DNA of 36,004 bases from a bacterium. Lineage in GTDB: Bacteria; Patescibacteriota; Minisyncoccia; UBA6257; GWB1-50-10. The notes beneath the pieces are model-generated. The model did no database searches. It had not been told where the DNA came from and saw only the letters and a list, made by a program, of their open reading frames with translations. Position numbers and translations under genes: made by a program. Every line of letters begins with the position of its first letter. Within the stretch, counting starts at the first letter, position 1. Where the stretch lies: the NCBI GenBank assembly GCA_021814545.1, contig JAKAID010000004.1, forward strand, positions 1-36,004, written 5' to 3'. This document shows, one piece after another, positions 22,557 to 31,783 of the stretch.

Positions 22557-22621
22557 TAGCTATCTTGTTTTTATAGCGAGTTCAATTATATGAACAATAT
22601 GATATGAAGTCAACCCCTGCC

Positions 22622-24208
22622 CTACTTTACATTAATGGTAATGCGCGCAAGGTCACTTGGCACCGCGTGCACCCAAAACGGCCACAGCTCAAGCGTGCCG
22701 CTCTTTAGCCCCTGGAGTTCGGAAAGCGAGGCGCGTGCCGCGGCCTCATCCTCCCCCGCGAGACTTTCGCGCAACGTATCGGTCGCGACCGCAGCGATGA
22801 GCGTCACAGAACCCGTCGCGTGCACTCGTATCGCGCCGTTCACGAAATCGTATTCCGGAGTCCCGTACTGGAGCGCCATGTCCGCAACGCGCTCTCTATC
22901 CTTTGCGCCCCCCGACACCTCTTCTGTAAGCGCGCTCTTCAGTGTCGATTCGTCGAACACTATCTCCCGTATCTCGCCCTCCATAAAGATGCTGAACTTC
23001 TTTTCGTCCTTATCACCCAGCTGTACGTTCTTATTCGTAACCGCAAAATGCGTGCTCCCGGGAAGCGCCTTGTAGGGGCCCGCCATCACGAGAAGCATCT
23101 TTTGGAGCGAGGTGTTCAGCGCGTCCTCCACCTTCTTCTCGCCCGCCGCGCGGTCGGCGTCCGAAGGAACCGAACGCTCCCCCACCACACCACCCGTCAT
23201 CGCTGATGCCGACTCACCATAGAACCCCGCAAAGCGAGGCGTCCCCTTGAAACCGGGAATGGTCCACCTCGTAACGGGGCCGATATTGTACGCCTCGCCC
23301 GGCTCCGCTGCGGAAACCGCCACATCAAGCATTGAGGGCTCGATTTTCCCGTTCACCACCTTCGCGCCGGGAATGGTCACGCCCTTATCGAGGCGGAACA
23401 TCTTCCCGTCCGGCGTTTCGAATCTCGTTTGCGCCACAAGCGGCTGCGGCACGGAGCTGTACGCGTTATACACGGTTATCGTTCCCGCGGCCTTATTGTT
23501 CACCTTCATCACTCCGCTCGCCGGAAAATCCAGTGCGATGTTGCCCTTCTGCACAAAAAGTTCCGCGGGTACCTGAAGCACGCCGCCCACCGTTGCGACT
23601 TCCCCGTACTTTTTATTTATGTCGAGCGTTTCGTCGATGGGCGCGCTCCTTGTTTTGAGCTCAAGCGTGATGGTCGCTCGCGGGAGTCGCACGTAGGCGC
23701 CCCACGCCGCGGAAATGATGCTCAACACGATAACGATAAGTAGTACGTTGCGGCGGAAACGCGACGGCTTCACCACCCCTTCTTCCGCCTCGCGCGGCGC
23801 CTCCACCTCGACGCAAAGCGGCACTTCCGTAGGAGCTTCGTCAAAATTCCGCACCTTGATATCTCTCTCCGCGGGGGCCGAAGAAGCTCTTTTTACTTTT
23901 GGCGCACGGCGCACAATGTCGAGCGTCGGTCGCTCCGCCCTGCTTTTGAAAATGGGGTTCGATGCGGTGATGCGTGCGAGCGCCGAAAGTTCGAGCACGC
24001 GGTCATCGATGGATTCCACGGTAAGCCTTTTCTTTGCGGTGGCGCTCTCCCGCTTCAACACCTGGAAATTACTCGCCGCGCTCCCCAACGCCGAGCCCTT
24101 TGGCACGTTCAACACTACGGACTCCCCCCGCGCGCGGATTATCTTATCTACGGCCACTTCAAGGCCGTCCGTCCTTCCTAAAAATATCTTTGATGCTTCG
24201 GGTGCCAT
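22622..24208 (-). CDS. TM protein: N-terminal alpha/beta domain, one TM, large extracytoplasmic baseplate-J-like region
   Basis: N-terminal VAVDKIIRARGESVVLNVPKGSALGSAASNFQVLKRESATAKKRLTVES; TM NVLLIVIVLSIISAAWGAYV; beta-rich segment GTITVYNAYSSVPQPLVAQTRFETPDGKMFRLDKGVTIPGA. Confidence 0.55.
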   Translation of the reverse strand: MAPEASKIFLGRTDGLEVAVDKIIRARGESVVLNVPKGSALGSAASNFQVLKRESATAKKRLTVESIDDRVLELSALARITASNPIFKSRAERPTLDIVRRAPKVKRASSAPAERDIKVRNFDEAPTEVPLCVEVEAPREAEEGVVKPSRFRRNVLLIVIVLSIISAAWGAYVRLPRATITLELKTRSAPIDETLDINKKYGEVATVGGVLQVPAELFVQKGNIALDFPASGVMKVNNKAAGTITVYNAYSSVPQPLVAQTRFETPDGKMFRLDKGVTIPGAKVVNGKIEPSMLDVAVSAAEPGEAYNIGPVTRWTIPGFKGTPRFAGFYGESASAMTGGVVGERSVPSDADRAAGEKKVEDALNTSLQKMLLVMAGPYKALPGSTHFAVTNKNVQLGDKDEKKFSIFMEGEIREIVFDESTLKSALTEEVSGGAKDRERVADMALQYGTPEYDFVNGAIRVHATGSVTLIAAVATDTLRESLAGEDEAAARASLSELQGLKSGTLELWPFWVHAVPSDLARITINVK

Positions 24209-24215
24209 GAGTTGG

Positions 24216-25379
24216 TTAGCCTTCGTGCGGTACGAGCCATTTTACGCGACGATGGAGCAGCTGGTTCAAAAATACATACTGCGGATGCATATAAGGATAG
24301 TATACCAGTGTGATGAGCGCTGCGCGCTCTTCTGCGGCTATTTCGGCTATGCGGGAACCGGCGCGGAATGAGAATTGCTCCACGGGTTCGGGGTCACGGA
24401 ATACCGCTATCCGTATGCGGCCGTCATCAACGAAGTCGTTCGGCAAACGCGCGCGGCCGTGCGCGGTCGTACGGACTGGTATTCGCTCCTTCCCCATCGC
24501 CCGCTTCGCGGTCTTCGCGACGAGGTCCTTCATCGCAGCTACCTCTTTTCGCGCGATGGCGGTCAATGCGTTGCGCATACGTTCGGATATTTGATTTTTG
24601 GCATACTGCCGCAGCACATCTCCCACGATCGCATCCGGTACGCCAAAATAGCGTCCGATAGCGCTCGTCACGAACGCATTCCCCCATGCACACCGCCCGA
24701 GATGGGTCGTCTCCCCGCTCTTCGTTATGTACACATCAGCCATGTGGTCGCCGATGTCGACAAGCACATTATCCCCGCCAAGGCTTTCAGAGAGCAACGC
24801 CCCGCGTTCAATGACCATCGGCGCCTCGCTAAATGATGCGGAGAGACGCTCAAGCGTGGGGAGGAGCGCACGCGTCACGAACGTCACGCGAAACTCGATA
24901 ACAAGTTCGCCCCCCTTGAAATCGAGTGGGTTAAACACCTTATGGCCATGAATGCGCACCCCGCAGACCGCAATATTCCCGACTACAAGCTCAAGCTCGC
25001 TCACGCCGAGTTTTTTCGCTGCGAGGGGGCGGTACCGATTCAAAAAATTCCACAGCGCGTGGAAGAGAAGAGCATCAAGTTCTTCGGCCCCGATAGTCGC
25101 TTCTGGATTCTCGCGCGTTGCCCGTACCACACCCTTTATCGTCGCTGCGTGGGCCGCGTCGAGCGCTACCACCGCGCGGTCGCAGTTTCCGGCCGTTTTC
25201 TGCGCGGCGGTGAATGCATCAAAGGAGCGGAACTCCCTCTGCGTGCGGACCCTTATCATTTTTGCGCGTTCGTTCGCCTCAAGCACGGTTGCCATGATGC
25301 CCCCTTCGCGCTGCTCAAGCAGCAGCACGCGTGAACCCTTTTTAACCATGCTGCGCAAGGAACGCAAAAGACGCTTCAT
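24216..25379 (-). CDS. FtsA/PilM-like (actin/ASKHA-fold) protein, degenerate nucleotide-binding motifs
   Basis: VDIGDHMADVYITKSGETTHLGRCAWGNAFVTSAIGRYFG resembles the phosphate-2/adenosine region of FtsA/PilM; VVALDAAHAATIKGVV resembles phosphate-1. Confidence 0.5.
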   Translation of the reverse strand: MKRLLRSLRSMVKKGSRVLLLEQREGGIMATVLEANERAKMIRVRTQREFRSFDAFTAAQKTAGNCDRAVVALDAAHAATIKGVVRATRENPEATIGAEELDALLFHALWNFLNRYRPLAAKKLGVSELELVVGNIAVCGVRIHGHKVFNPLDFKGGELVIEFRVTFVTRALLPTLERLSASFSEAPMVIERGALLSESLGGDNVLVDIGDHMADVYITKSGETTHLGRCAWGNAFVTSAIGRYFGVPDAIVGDVLRQYAKNQISERMRNALTAIARKEVAAMKDLVAKTAKRAMGKERIPVRTTAHGRARLPNDFVDDGRIRIAVFRDPEPVEQFSFRAGSRIAEIAAEERAALITLVYYPYMHPQYVFLNQLLHRRVKWLVPHEG

Positions 25380-25952
25380 CTATGTGATGATCTTGGTTGC
25401 CTCCAAAAAACGCGCATAAAGATTAAGCGTTTGTTCAGCAACCCGCGCCGACGGCACGAATGTCGCATCGTGCGCTATCGTGTTCCTCATCCGATGCGCC
25501 CTGAAAAGCCCATTCACCACTGCGGGGCTCATCCTTGCCGCGTTCAGCCTTCCGAAGCGTTCTGCGGTATCGCGCCCCACGAACCCGGCCTCCTGAAGCA
25601 GCTTATCAACGATCGCATCCGCACTCATGATCGCATCGCGGTATGATGCGGGCGGGTTCGCGTTCGCCGTCTTCTTCACCTCGTCCCATTGCGATGCGTA
25701 CTTTTCTCTCACGCCCGCCCGTTTCAAAATCTCCGCAATGTTCGGCGGCAACGCGCGAAGATCTATTTTTATGCGGTACGAAAGCGCCTTCTCCGTATAC
25801 ACATACATAAGCCAAAGCGCGACCGCGTCGAGCGCAATAAATACGACACGCGCAATTTCATACACGAGCGTCCAGGGCACATGCGCCACGAGGGCGTCGA
25901 ATGAGCCCACGATCGCTCCGATGATATCCATAGGAAATGTTATCGGGGTCAT
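25380..25952 (-). CDS. Membrane-anchored HEPN-like helical protein
   Basis: N-terminal TM (YEIARVVFIALDAVALWLMYVY) then an all-helical region with RAHRMRNTIAHDATF, matching the R-N-x3-H (Rx4H) HEPN-type motif. Confidence 0.5.
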   Translation of the reverse strand: MTPITFPMDIIGAIVGSFDALVAHVPWTLVYEIARVVFIALDAVALWLMYVYTEKALSYRIKIDLRALPPNIAEILKRAGVREKYASQWDEVKKTANANPPASYRDAIMSADAIVDKLLQEAGFVGRDTAERFGRLNAARMSPAVVNGLFRAHRMRNTIAHDATFVPSARVAEQTLNLYARFLEATKIIT

Positions 25953-27358
25953 GATGTGGATTTCTTTTTGAATCTCTCGAGATCTTCCTCCGCACCGAAA
26001 ATGTCGAGACCTGCGGGCGGACCCGCCTTCTTACTCTCCACGCGCCGCATGTGGGGCGCGGTCAATACGCCTGTCGGCGCAGGATGATAAATGGTCGCAA
26101 GTTCATCTGTTACAAGCTCATAAGAAACGGAATCAAAATTCCACTCCATAAAGAACGAGGTGAAAAGTTTCCCTGTAAATGTTTCCGGCGGATTTACGCG
26201 GTTACGAAGATTGTGGAGGAGGCGCTGTTTGCGATATTCGAGCCGCTTATCGACATAGACGTGTGGGAATTTCCACTTGTCTATTCTTGTGGTGGTACCG
26301 GAGTTCGCCTTAAACGCGTTCATATTCGGCGCGCTATACTGATTGAACGCTCCCGTAATGCCGCCCCGCGCAAAACCGGACCCCTCTTTCAAAATGGTGC
26401 CCGGCGACATATAGCACAACCGCACCAGTGTATTAAATGCGGGCTTCGTAAGTTTATTCTCAACCGCATTAATAACCTCGGTTTTTTTCGCAGTATGCGC
26501 CACCGGCATTTTCGCCTCGCCTCCCGTTTCCACGAGTTCCGGCGCGCGCAGTTTCTTCACGAGCTCATCATACGTCTTTGCCCAATCTTTTCCTGCGGGA
26601 GAAATGAGCATCTGCACCACGACCACTTCGCCTCCCTTGATTTTTGCAAGCGTTTCGAGAAACACGGAGAGCGGGTCGATTTGTTTTTCTGCGGAACCCG
26701 TTTCAAACATGGGATATGTTTTAAGTGGGTACGCGCCCTCCTTCGCCAGAATGAACTCGGTGCCCCATAGGTCCATCCCCAATGCATAGAGTTCGGCAGT
26801 GGTTGCGGGAAGTTCGCGCATGTAATCCTTCACCTCCGTTATCTCCACGTCGGGATACTGCGAAAAAAAGGCCACCTCGGTGAGGTTCGTGTGCTTCTTG
26901 GGCATACGGAGATAAAAGTGTATTTGCCCGCCAAGACTTACAAGTTCCAGAGAGAACCAAAGTGGCACCTGCCCCTCGATATATTTTTCGCGCCAATTGC
27001 CAGGCGCATTCCCCATACCGTGCAGCGCCTGGAACACGTGCTCCATGGACTTCGCACTCTTCTCAAGCTCGCGCGGTATTCTTATTTCGAATAGTGCGTA
27101 TTTTTCGGGTGCCGCCTCTTTTTGCTTATATTTCTGCTGCTGCACGTACAAGAACAATTCACGCAGTAATTCCCAAAATATCAAGAAAAGCCAGAACCAC
27201 CATGTGTACTTAATGAACGTGAAGAAGAAAAATGGTATTTGCCGAGGGTCAAGGAGCGGCAGCGATGCGCCGAACACTATCATAAAGAGCCATATCTCCC
27301 AGTGAGAGAACAGCGTAACAAAGAAATCTACTACATGATCATAAAGGTCTCGGAACAT
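25949..27358 (-). CDS. Uncharacterised membrane protein with N-terminal TM helices and large soluble domain
   Basis: WEIWLFMIVFGASLPLLDPRQIPFFFFTFIKYTWWFWLFLIFWELLRELFLYV; then LFEIRIPRELEKSAKSMEHVFQALHG...FYLRMPKKHTNLTEVAFFSQYPDVEITEV. ATGA overlap with the next gene. Confidence 0.55.
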   Translation of the reverse strand: MFRDLYDHVVDFFVTLFSHWEIWLFMIVFGASLPLLDPRQIPFFFFTFIKYTWWFWLFLIFWELLRELFLYVQQQKYKQKEAAPEKYALFEIRIPRELEKSAKSMEHVFQALHGMGNAPGNWREKYIEGQVPLWFSLELVSLGGQIHFYLRMPKKHTNLTEVAFFSQYPDVEITEVKDYMRELPATTAELYALGMDLWGTEFILAKEGAYPLKTYPMFETGSAEKQIDPLSVFLETLAKIKGGEVVVVQMLISPAGKDWAKTYDELVKKLRAPELVETGGEAKMPVAHTAKKTEVINAVENKLTKPAFNTLVRLCYMSPGTILKEGSGFARGGITGAFNQYSAPNMNAFKANSGTTTRIDKWKFPHVYVDKRLEYRKQRLLHNLRNRVNPPETFTGKLFTSFFMEWNFDSVSYELVTDELATIYHPAPTGVLTAPHMRRVESKKAGPPAGLDIFGAEEDLERFKKKSTS

Positions 27359-27397
27359 TCGCGGGTGGTATCCTTATTCTACACAAATCATGTTCTT

Positions 27398-27434
27398 AAC
27401 AAAACGCCCTCGCGGTGTGCGGGGGCGTTTTGTT
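27398..27434 (-). terminator. Rho-independent terminator downstream of the sigma4-HARE gene
   Basis: AACAAAACGCCCTCGC-ggtgt-GCGGGGGCGTTTTGTT; 16-bp stem with one G.T pair and T-rich 3' end. Confidence 0.92.
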
Positions 27435-27441
27435 CGATAAT

Positions 27442-28455
27442 TTATGCTTCTTTGATGGAATACTTGTTGTTCTCAAGGCGCTTGAAGTGCTTGCGATTCT
27501 GAAGGCTCAAAAGAATAGTGTTCTCTTTCAAGAAACGCTGTTTGTTGACGAGCTGGACCACTTCTGACGATGACAGCGGACCATGCTTCTTCAAAAGCGA
27601 CACGATTACCTCGCGCACCGTTCCCGGCTCGAACCCGTGCTCGCGAAGCCCGTACATACCGCGCCCTACCAATACGAAGCGCTCATCTTTGATAAGTTCG
27701 TTGTGCACAGTCTGAACGTGCGCGCGCTTCTTATCGAGACCGAACTCATTGATGGACTTCGCTACGTGCTCGAAGTGAAGGGGTTGGCCATGCTTTTTGA
27801 GCACCAAATACGCTTTATCGCGGATAGTTTTCGGTTCTATCTCCGCCCACTCGCGCAATCCGATATCGCCGAACACGTTCTCACCAAAATGCTTCGGGAT
27901 AGCAAGGTAATGGCACGAGGCGAGCCCCTTGCAGAGCGGCAGATACGTCTTCTCGCGAAGTATCTGGTTTCTATCTCCGTTCTTGAAGAACTGGGTCAGC
28001 TCCTTCGTGAACTCTTCAAAGCGCTTCTTCGCCTCTTCGTTCGCATACCAAAATGCGTGCACGCCATCGTCTTCTTTATGATACTGCGGAATGCCTGCAG
28101 TAAGGAATATGAAGCGCAGCTTCTGGTCGATATATTTCGTTTCAGCGTCATTCAACAGCTTCTTCATCTCCGCGATAAAGGTGTCGTCGCGACGTACAGA
28201 ATCTACCGAGTTCAAATGTGTCGATGCCGCATCAATGAGCTCTTTCGCGCCCGCGCGGACGTCCTCCCGTATCTTCGCGATGACCTGCTCTTCTATCTGG
28301 CGCACGCGCTCGCGCGTAATGCCAAGCTCATCGCCTATCTCCTGGAGCGTTGCGCGCTTCCCCGTTTTCAAACCAAAACGGCCCGTGAGCACCTTGCGCT
28401 GCTTCGGGGTGAATTCCGCCACAAGCTCGTTGATGAACTGGTCAATGTTTTTCAT
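27442..28455 (-). CDS. Sigma-70 region 4-like HTH protein fused to HARE-type winged helices
   Basis: N-terminal FTPKQRKVLTGRFGLKTGKRATLQEIGDELGITRERVRQIEEQVIAKI (sigma region 4); later TIRDKAYLVLKKHGQPLHFEHVAKSI...RFVLVGRGMYGLREHG (HARE-HTH-like) and a second wHTH-like segment. Confidence 0.75.
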   Translation of the reverse strand: MKNIDQFINELVAEFTPKQRKVLTGRFGLKTGKRATLQEIGDELGITRERVRQIEEQVIAKIREDVRAGAKELIDAASTHLNSVDSVRRDDTFIAEMKKLLNDAETKYIDQKLRFIFLTAGIPQYHKEDDGVHAFWYANEEAKKRFEEFTKELTQFFKNGDRNQILREKTYLPLCKGLASCHYLAIPKHFGENVFGDIGLREWAEIEPKTIRDKAYLVLKKHGQPLHFEHVAKSINEFGLDKKRAHVQTVHNELIKDERFVLVGRGMYGLREHGFEPGTVREVIVSLLKKHGPLSSSEVVQLVNKQRFLKENTILLSLQNRKHFKRLENNKYSIKEA

Positions 28456-30751: not shown

Positions 30752-31783
30752 ATGCGAAATCAACTTACGGTATTACTGGTCGGCGAAGTGGACCGCGAGT
30801 TGCGCGGTGAGGTGTTCCAAGCTCAAAAAGTGAAGAGTGCGCCTCACTATTTCGAGATATCCATCCCCCACCCCGTCATCGTCGGCGAGGCGAAATCAAG
30901 CATCGACAATGTTCCCCTTGTCTTCTCCATTAAGGGGTATCCGCCTGATATTCTCCTTATTGAAAGTACGATCGAGGTAAAGGATGTATTCGACCATGAG
31001 GCCATGGCGAAACTCGAATCCGCTATCTACGAACAGAGCTACAAGATACTCGCTGAACACGGCGGGAGCCGCGATTATAGCGAAACGTACTCGGTCTTCA
31101 GCGTTTCCGGCTATGCGGGTGAACCGGAGCAATTCCTCAAGCACTCCCCCGCCATCGCCTCGCTCCTCAAGTCGGAGCGGCTTGAGCTCGACCCCAAGGA
31201 AATCGAGCACACGATGTCCGCACAAATAAAGTACGCAAAGAACGACCTCGCCATCATCGACTGGGACGGCGCCTTCCTCTTCGACCCTGAGGGCGACGTG
31301 CTCCCCACAATAGAACTCCTTACCCTCGCGAACCTTCAGCTCCTTCGCGCGCGCATCCTTGATCGCCAGCTCGATGACCGCTTGAAGCACGTGAGTAAGT
31401 TCATCAAGCGCCCCGAATCGAGCAAAAAACTTTTTAAAGTATTCGACAACGCTGAACTTTCGGAAGACCTCCGCCAGATCATCAAGATAATCATGTCCTC
31501 CATCGCGGAGGTGCAGCTCCTCGAGCGCGATATCAAGCTCATCGGCGACTGGTACTCCGCGCGCCTCTATGACCTTGCCACGCACAAATTCAAGGTGAAT
31601 GAGTGGCGCGCCACCATTAAGGAAAAACTCGACCTCCTTGAGGACGTGTACGGCATCGTAAAAGAGAACTTCTCTATTTCAGAAAAAGACCGCGCCGAAT
31701 GGATACAAATCATCGCCTGGTTTTTCCTCCAAATCGGCTGGTTCGTGCTCATTATTATCGAGTTCCTCTATTTCACGAAGTAG
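30752..31783 (+). CDS. Uncharacterised helical protein with C-terminal TM anchor (possibly DUF155/RMD1-like)
   Basis: Long helical region NLQLLRARILDRQLDDRLKHVSKFIKR...IAEVQLLERDIKLIGDWYSARLYDLATHKF and C-terminal TM IIAWFFLQIGWFVLIIIEFLYF; family assignment weak. Confidence 0.5.
   Translation: MRNQLTVLLVGEVDRELRGEVFQAQKVKSAPHYFEISIPHPVIVGEAKSSIDNVPLVFSIKGYPPDILLIESTIEVKDVFDHEAMAKLESAIYEQSYKILAEHGGSRDYSETYSVFSVSGYAGEPEQFLKHSPAIASLLKSERLELDPKEIEHTMSAQIKYAKNDLAIIDWDGAFLFDPEGDVLPTIELLTLANLQLLRARILDRQLDDRLKHVSKFIKRPESSKKLFKVFDNAELSEDLRQIIKIIMSSIAEVQLLERDIKLIGDWYSARLYDLATHKFKVNEWRATIKEKLDLLEDVYGIVKENFSISEKDRAEWIQIIAWFFLQIGWFVLIIIEFLYFTK

Follow-up and report, generated by a model that had tools for sequence, protein, structure and literature searches.

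Type IV coupling proteins (T4CPs) of the VirD4/TraG/TrwB type and the HerA/DUF87 ATPases combine a membrane N-terminal part with a cytoplasmic motor. A survey of 2,918 Patescibacteria genomes counted 5,713 VirD4 homologues, of which only 148 lie near virB4, and left their role open (PMC12102498). Families enriched in the Candidate Phyla Radiation (CPR) comprise many unannotated membrane proteins together with the standard type IV pilus set (PMC6744442). Little is known of the envelope machinery with which Patescibacteria live on other bacteria. In this study, a 36-kb contig (JAKAID010000004.1, 36,004 nucleotides; "the window" hereafter means this whole stretch) was analyzed, from a genome of 561 kb in 16 contigs whose closest named relatives, Candidatus Jorgensenbacteria and Harrisonbacteria among them, are Patescibacteria. 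The window carries a four-gene operon, here called A-B-C-D:

25949-27358, minus strand: gene A, open reading frame (ORF) of 469 amino acids (aa)
25380-25952, minus strand: gene B, ORF of 190 aa
24216-25379, minus strand: gene C, ORF of 387 aa
22622-24208, minus strand: gene D, ORF of 528 aa

The operon is real. The ORFs and spacings are exactly those of the original prediction, which was made from the sequence alone: A and B share ATGA (a 4-nt overlap), B and C are separated by 0 nt, and C and D by 7 nt. Each gene represents a conserved protein family, and the arrangement is not a product of chance. The operon is probably a union of parts from two ancient envelope modules of Patescibacteria, one consisting of A and a separately encoded ATPase, with B, and the other of C and D. 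The gene orders of relatives indicate that A-B-C-D is a genus-level junction of these two older modules and not one co-inherited four-gene system. The locus had been proposed as an undescribed system; both modules indeed appear undescribed in the open-licence PMC literature, but they do not make up a single system of four genes. The parts of Saccharibacteria transposon-sequencing (Tn-seq) and pilus papers reached by keyword search (PMC10633639, PMC12206443) contained nothing on C-D or on A and its ATPase.

Two blocks recur in the fetched loci, secD-secF-(sigma r4+HARE)-A-B-ATPase, where sigma r4 denotes sigma-70 region 4, and dnaG-rpoD-alaS-C-D-infA-rpsM-rpsK-rpsD-rpoA. In many family members the two lie far apart or on separate contigs. 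They are joined as A-B-C-D in the window's genus and as A-B-ATPase-C-D in G012, G026 and G028; G023 is arranged likewise but has no B ORF in its gene calls, and other relatives show A-B-D or A-B-x-D. The outgroups L198, L203, L208 and L271 have the order sigma r4-A-ATPase-...-alaS-(C)-D-infA. Thus, the blocks were probably close together in an ancestor, and the window's order would be one of several rearrangements. Conservation of the neighborhood had been suggested as a check; it was found for the pairs A-B and C-D. All four genes stand together without interruption in the window's genus alone; a few others have the set with the ATPase placed within it.

Gene A, its ATPase partner and gene B

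The A protein is hydrophobic in parts of its N-terminus (aa 12-30 and a Trp-rich stretch at about aa 40-75). It has no Pfam or NCBIfam match above the cut-off, its profile matched none of the PDB sequences, and a scan of viral contigs found no member. The family occurs in 96 of 99 relatives and in 283 of 287 Patescibacteria genomes across the phylum, and many of its matches sit within long open frames. In all ten genomes checked outside the window's class, A and an ATPase domain form a single polypeptide of 880-1190 aa, in which the A part (expectation value (E) 1e-63 to 1e-74) comes first and the ATPase domain (E 1e-174 to 1e-200) directly after it. What is one protein elsewhere is therefore encoded here in two halves, and by homology A is the orthologue of the membrane N-terminal half of the Patescibacteria VirD4/TraG-family ATPase. 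Either a split took place in the window's class or a fusion in the other classes, the direction being unrooted. Within the window's order, the two genes are adjacent in some genomes and apart in others. In the genome studied here, the partner lies on another contig:

G000:C16:47223-48947 (= L144:8224-9951): ATPase partner of A, 575 aa, directly after dnaG-rpoD-alaS

This unlinked protein contains the T4CP-type P-loop ATPase domain and matches the TrwB, TraG, DUF87 and T4SS-DNA_transf families of Pfam (PF10412, PF02534, PF12696, PF01935). Its orthologues were found in 14/14 genomes searched, with 62-83% identity outside the query genome, and it is the same ATPase that adjoins A in the outgroup families G061 and G083. 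The motor absent from the operon is a VirD4/TraG-type ATPase belonging with A, not a pilus ATPase. The same genome also encodes a 783-aa fused paralogue with both A-like and ATPase parts, located beside pilin and PilB genes; hhalign aligned A with residues 33-364 of this protein at a probability of 99.6%. Compared with known T4CPs, the N-terminal half is here a separate gene that lacks Pfam and PDB matches and has no recognized genes of a type IV secretion system (T4SS) nearby. It is also larger than the usual T4CP membrane anchor. The tie between A and its ATPase supplies a membrane partner for the VirD4-type ATPases, of which the literature counts about two per genome. Patescibacteria are among the largest groups of bacteria, and A, its ATPase and D are near-universal in them.

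Some relatives encode a further ATPase, k6, between B and C. It was considered as the missing orthologue and rejected as an extra paralogue; its identity is 44-46% in three genomes and 37% in a fourth, and it is present in part of the family. The 575-aa ATPase ends in a treble-clef zinc finger (PF23477), which was unmatched in one k6 paralogue and in the fused paralogue tested. In the relatives L090, L094, L101, L104, L114, L117 and L119, up to four cysteine-rich proteins of about 590 aa follow A-B-ATPase. They carry CxxC...CxxC at the N-terminus and in some cases also at the C-terminus; the one tested had no Pfam match, and such arrays are absent from the window's genus. The idea that they share the ATPase's zinc finger was dropped, the likeness being limited to the CxxC...CxxC pattern.

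Gene B encodes one transmembrane segment (aa 33-51) and a C-terminal domain with an R-N-X3-H motif (R156, N157, H161) that is at least 90% conserved and fits the HEPN motif RX4-6H. The family is conserved at class level (82/93 genomes of the class), and B adjoins A wherever it was detected in the fetched family loci. The predicted membrane anchor and HEPN likeness are borne out by the transmembrane segment and the motif, but the Pfam score is weak: HEPN_Swt1 matched 6/23 members (best E 0.0035), and the window's B has no HEPN match. Membership in the HEPN group is plausible for this membrane-anchored protein.

Genes C and D

Protein C has no transmembrane segment. Its AlphaFold model, built from 38 sequences, has a predicted local distance difference test (pLDDT) score of 87.4 and a predicted TM-score (pTM) of 0.87. 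In Foldseek searches, the model matched FtsA (E 3e-16) and PilM (E 5e-14), both with probability 1.0 and FtsA best. TM-scores against the FtsA and PilM structures were only about 0.5, perhaps reflecting a different placement of the domains. The modeled fold is accordingly best described as that of FtsA/PilM. In a tree of 56 proteins, FtsA and PilM were separated from all C proteins by a branch with support 99/96, and PilM formed a clade with support 100/100; the tree is unrooted and includes several long branches. C forms a third clade of the FtsA/PilM superfamily.

The phosphate-1 motif DxG[TS] is present in 15/15 C proteins of other classes and in 0/32 of the window's clade. Because this motif has been lost, C of the window's clade probably no longer binds ATP and may be regarded as a pseudo-actin. 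The earlier description of C as a degenerate FtsA/PilM-like protein agrees with both the fold and the motif. C defines a third FtsA/PilM-type lineage, one branch of which has turned pseudo-actin. The terminal helices are amphipathic and basic in many members, though not uniformly, and membrane binding through a terminal helix is offered as a suggestion only. In the same tentative sense, a basic, Trp-containing C-terminal helix recalls the membrane-targeting helix of FtsA, the best structural match. Unlike FtsA, C does not lie beside ftsZ, has lost the ATP motif in the window's clade, and falls outside the FtsA clade. The genome's canonical FtsA is on contig C12 with an adjoining FtsZ-like ORF (FtsZ was named from its sequence, not searched). 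C was undetected in 25/59 relatives of the window's order, while D was retained in 58/59; some of these apparent losses may mean only that a fast-evolving protein escaped detection.

The AlphaFold model of D (46 sequences) has a pLDDT of 88.8 and, with a disordered linker, a pTM of 0.56. Its parts in the model are as follows:

aa 1-91: alpha/beta cytoplasmic domain
aa 92-148: disordered linker
aa 150-174: transmembrane helix
after the transmembrane helix: beta-rich ectodomain

The single transmembrane helix and beta-rich ectodomain are in line with the predicted membrane protein with a large beta-rich exterior. Structural matches of the barrel are GlxA and phage gp47; Foldseek gave phage Mu gp47 with probability 1.0 over 110 columns at a root-mean-square deviation of 2.8. 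Among 30 members, Pfam found the GlxA domain in 26 and Baseplate_J (PF04865) in three. The model thus depicts D as a bitopic protein whose ectodomain carries the barrel common to baseplate J/gp47 and GlxA. Unlike baseplate J, D is encoded on the chromosome, crosses the membrane once and has a cytoplasmic domain. Its surroundings showed no phage structural genes; across the phylum its context is chromosomal and housekeeping, not that of a tail or contractile system.

Across the phylum, the D family was detected in 183/192 genomes. In 86 of 89 genomes (53 families) where C is clear and D is listed, C is the immediate upstream neighbor of D and shares its strand; this pairing is the strongest functional link found. 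As a near-constant partner of C, D is open to direct tests in Saccharibacteria that can be cultivated and genetically manipulated. In other classes, the C-D pair is flanked by alaS on one side and ruvX-mltG on the other; ruvX-mltG follows C-D directly in several sampled loci, and ruvX is nearby in others. A contig labeled Chloroflexi (L209, PMLK01000035.1) shows alaS-D-mltG without C, and its D matches Baseplate_J at E 4e-8. It is possibly a trace of D outside Patescibacteria, or else a mislabeled bin.

Linkage of the modules and competing explanations

In the proposed two-module explanation, A would dock the separately encoded ATPase on the cytoplasmic membrane, and the two would act as a coupling-protein-like motor pumping protein or DNA. 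B would be an accessory of A, linked to it in this family. C may bind the cytoplasmic alpha/beta domain of D as a scaffold beneath the membrane, in the window's lineage as a static adaptor after loss of the ATP motif, and the ectodomain of D may act in the wall or beyond it, where it would anchor or organize an envelope structure. Joint action of the two modules is somewhat doubtful, and this estimate is kept low because housekeeping gene order can yield A-D linkage without shared function. A quite unlikely extension is an undescribed envelope machine of almost all Patescibacteria, wherein C and D hold the A-ATPase motor at the membrane for host-cell contact or uptake.

Of the 56 genomes in which both A and D are listed, 16 have A on the strand of D and no more than 10 kb upstream of it. 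Counted by family, this is 7/30, with a chance of 3e-6 under random placement. Several points weigh against the proposed explanation. Half of the A-near-D genomes (8/16) belong to one family. Both modules adjoin housekeeping genes (secDF, alaS, infA and ribosomal genes), so that an inherited order of genes, and not a common task, may explain their linkage. No dependence between the occurrence of B and that of C was found (Fisher P 0.74), and the relatives in which C was undetected mostly keep A and D; the quartet is therefore not an obligate unit. In the literature considered above, no experiment on A, B, C or D was found.

The strongest rival, plausible though falling somewhat short of an even chance, holds that there are two unrelated functions: C-D would be a scaffold for the cell wall or division, A with its ATPase would be a separate translocase, and their adjacency would be housekeeping synteny. 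C would then be a third FtsA-like protein, positioning peptidoglycan enzymes such as MltG through D. This is consistent with the alaS and ruvX-mltG surroundings of C-D outside the class, where LysM/CHAP hydrolases lie beyond, with alaS-D-mltG on the Chloroflexi-labeled contig, and with the separation of A and D, which in most genomes lie a long way from each other or on two contigs. However, the same-strand proximity of A to D described above exceeds chance, and within Patescibacteria the MltG neighborhood alternates with an infA/ribosomal one, so that neighbors may mean little.

Less likely is that A and its ATPase serve the VirB4-type secretion system of Patescibacteria as its T4CP, C and D being additional envelope components of that system. 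The TrwB, TraG and T4SS-DNA_transf matches of the ATPase fit this explanation, and about two VirD4 homologues per genome (PMC12102498) would correspond to the split pair and the fused paralogue found here. Yet only 148 VirD4 homologues lie near virB4, and in one tested species the VirD4 homologue was non-essential while other T4SS genes were essential (PMC12102498). Moreover, no T4SS genes were recognized near A; VirB4 was not searched in this genome.

Membership in a PilMNO-type inner-membrane platform of a type IV pilus is very improbable. The original prediction had drawn this analogy, and part of it holds: C has the actin-like FtsA/PilM fold and, like PilM, is cytoplasmic and encoded directly before a bitopic membrane protein. 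As a member of the platform, the locus was rejected. The genome has its own PilM in a separate pilM-pilN-pilO-pilB-pilT operon on contig C2, the tree separates C from PilM, and D, with its baseplate-J barrel and alpha/beta cytoplasmic domain, has neither the build of PilN/PilO nor a Pfam match to them. No pil genes were recognized beside C-D in the window or in relatives. The remark that no pilus ATPase is present is true within the window, but the genome has pilus ATPases on other contigs. A second PilB, with pilin-like proteins bearing Laminin_G_3 lectin domains, lies beside the fused A-ATPase paralogue (G000:C16:1-19000, L143); together with the operon on C2, this makes two pilus ATPase loci in the genome.

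A HEPN-based defense or toxin system at the membrane is scarcely credible: B keeps the R-N-X3-H motif and some members match HEPN_Swt1 weakly, but the family is conserved at class level in a housekeeping setting, and neither a partner nucleotidyltransferase nor a mobile context was seen.

Operon boundaries and neighboring genes

Three features mark the surroundings of the operon:

27442-28455, minus strand: sigma-70 region 4 + HARE-HTH protein, a context gene upstream of A and outside the system
27398-27434, minus strand: intrinsic-terminator-like hairpin with a 12-bp GC-rich stem, between the sigma-r4/HARE gene and A
22585-22613, minus strand: promoter-like site TTGACT-17-TATAAT, a consensus match only, between D and infA

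The region 27390-27450 (61 nt) folds with an energy of -24.6 kcal/mol (z -6.5). The consensus terminator scan had a loop limit of 8 nt, and the hairpin was therefore overlooked. This terminator-like element would insulate the operon from the upstream sigma-r4/HARE gene; of the terminators predicted on this side, one hairpin was confirmed, and the plural was not borne out. Since the promoter-like site lies between D and infA, the ribosomal block downstream of D probably has its own start.

The sigma-r4/HARE gene lies directly upstream of A in most A-bearing relatives and in outgroup classes. Its product, in which sigma-70 region 4 is fused to HARE-HTH, is an RpoE(delta)-like transcription factor, and the position of the gene is conserved. 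On the opposite strand, upstream of secD, an ORF of 343 aa (30752-31783, plus strand) belongs to an unknown family, and several genomes have a relative of about 340 aa at the corresponding position (cluster k30).

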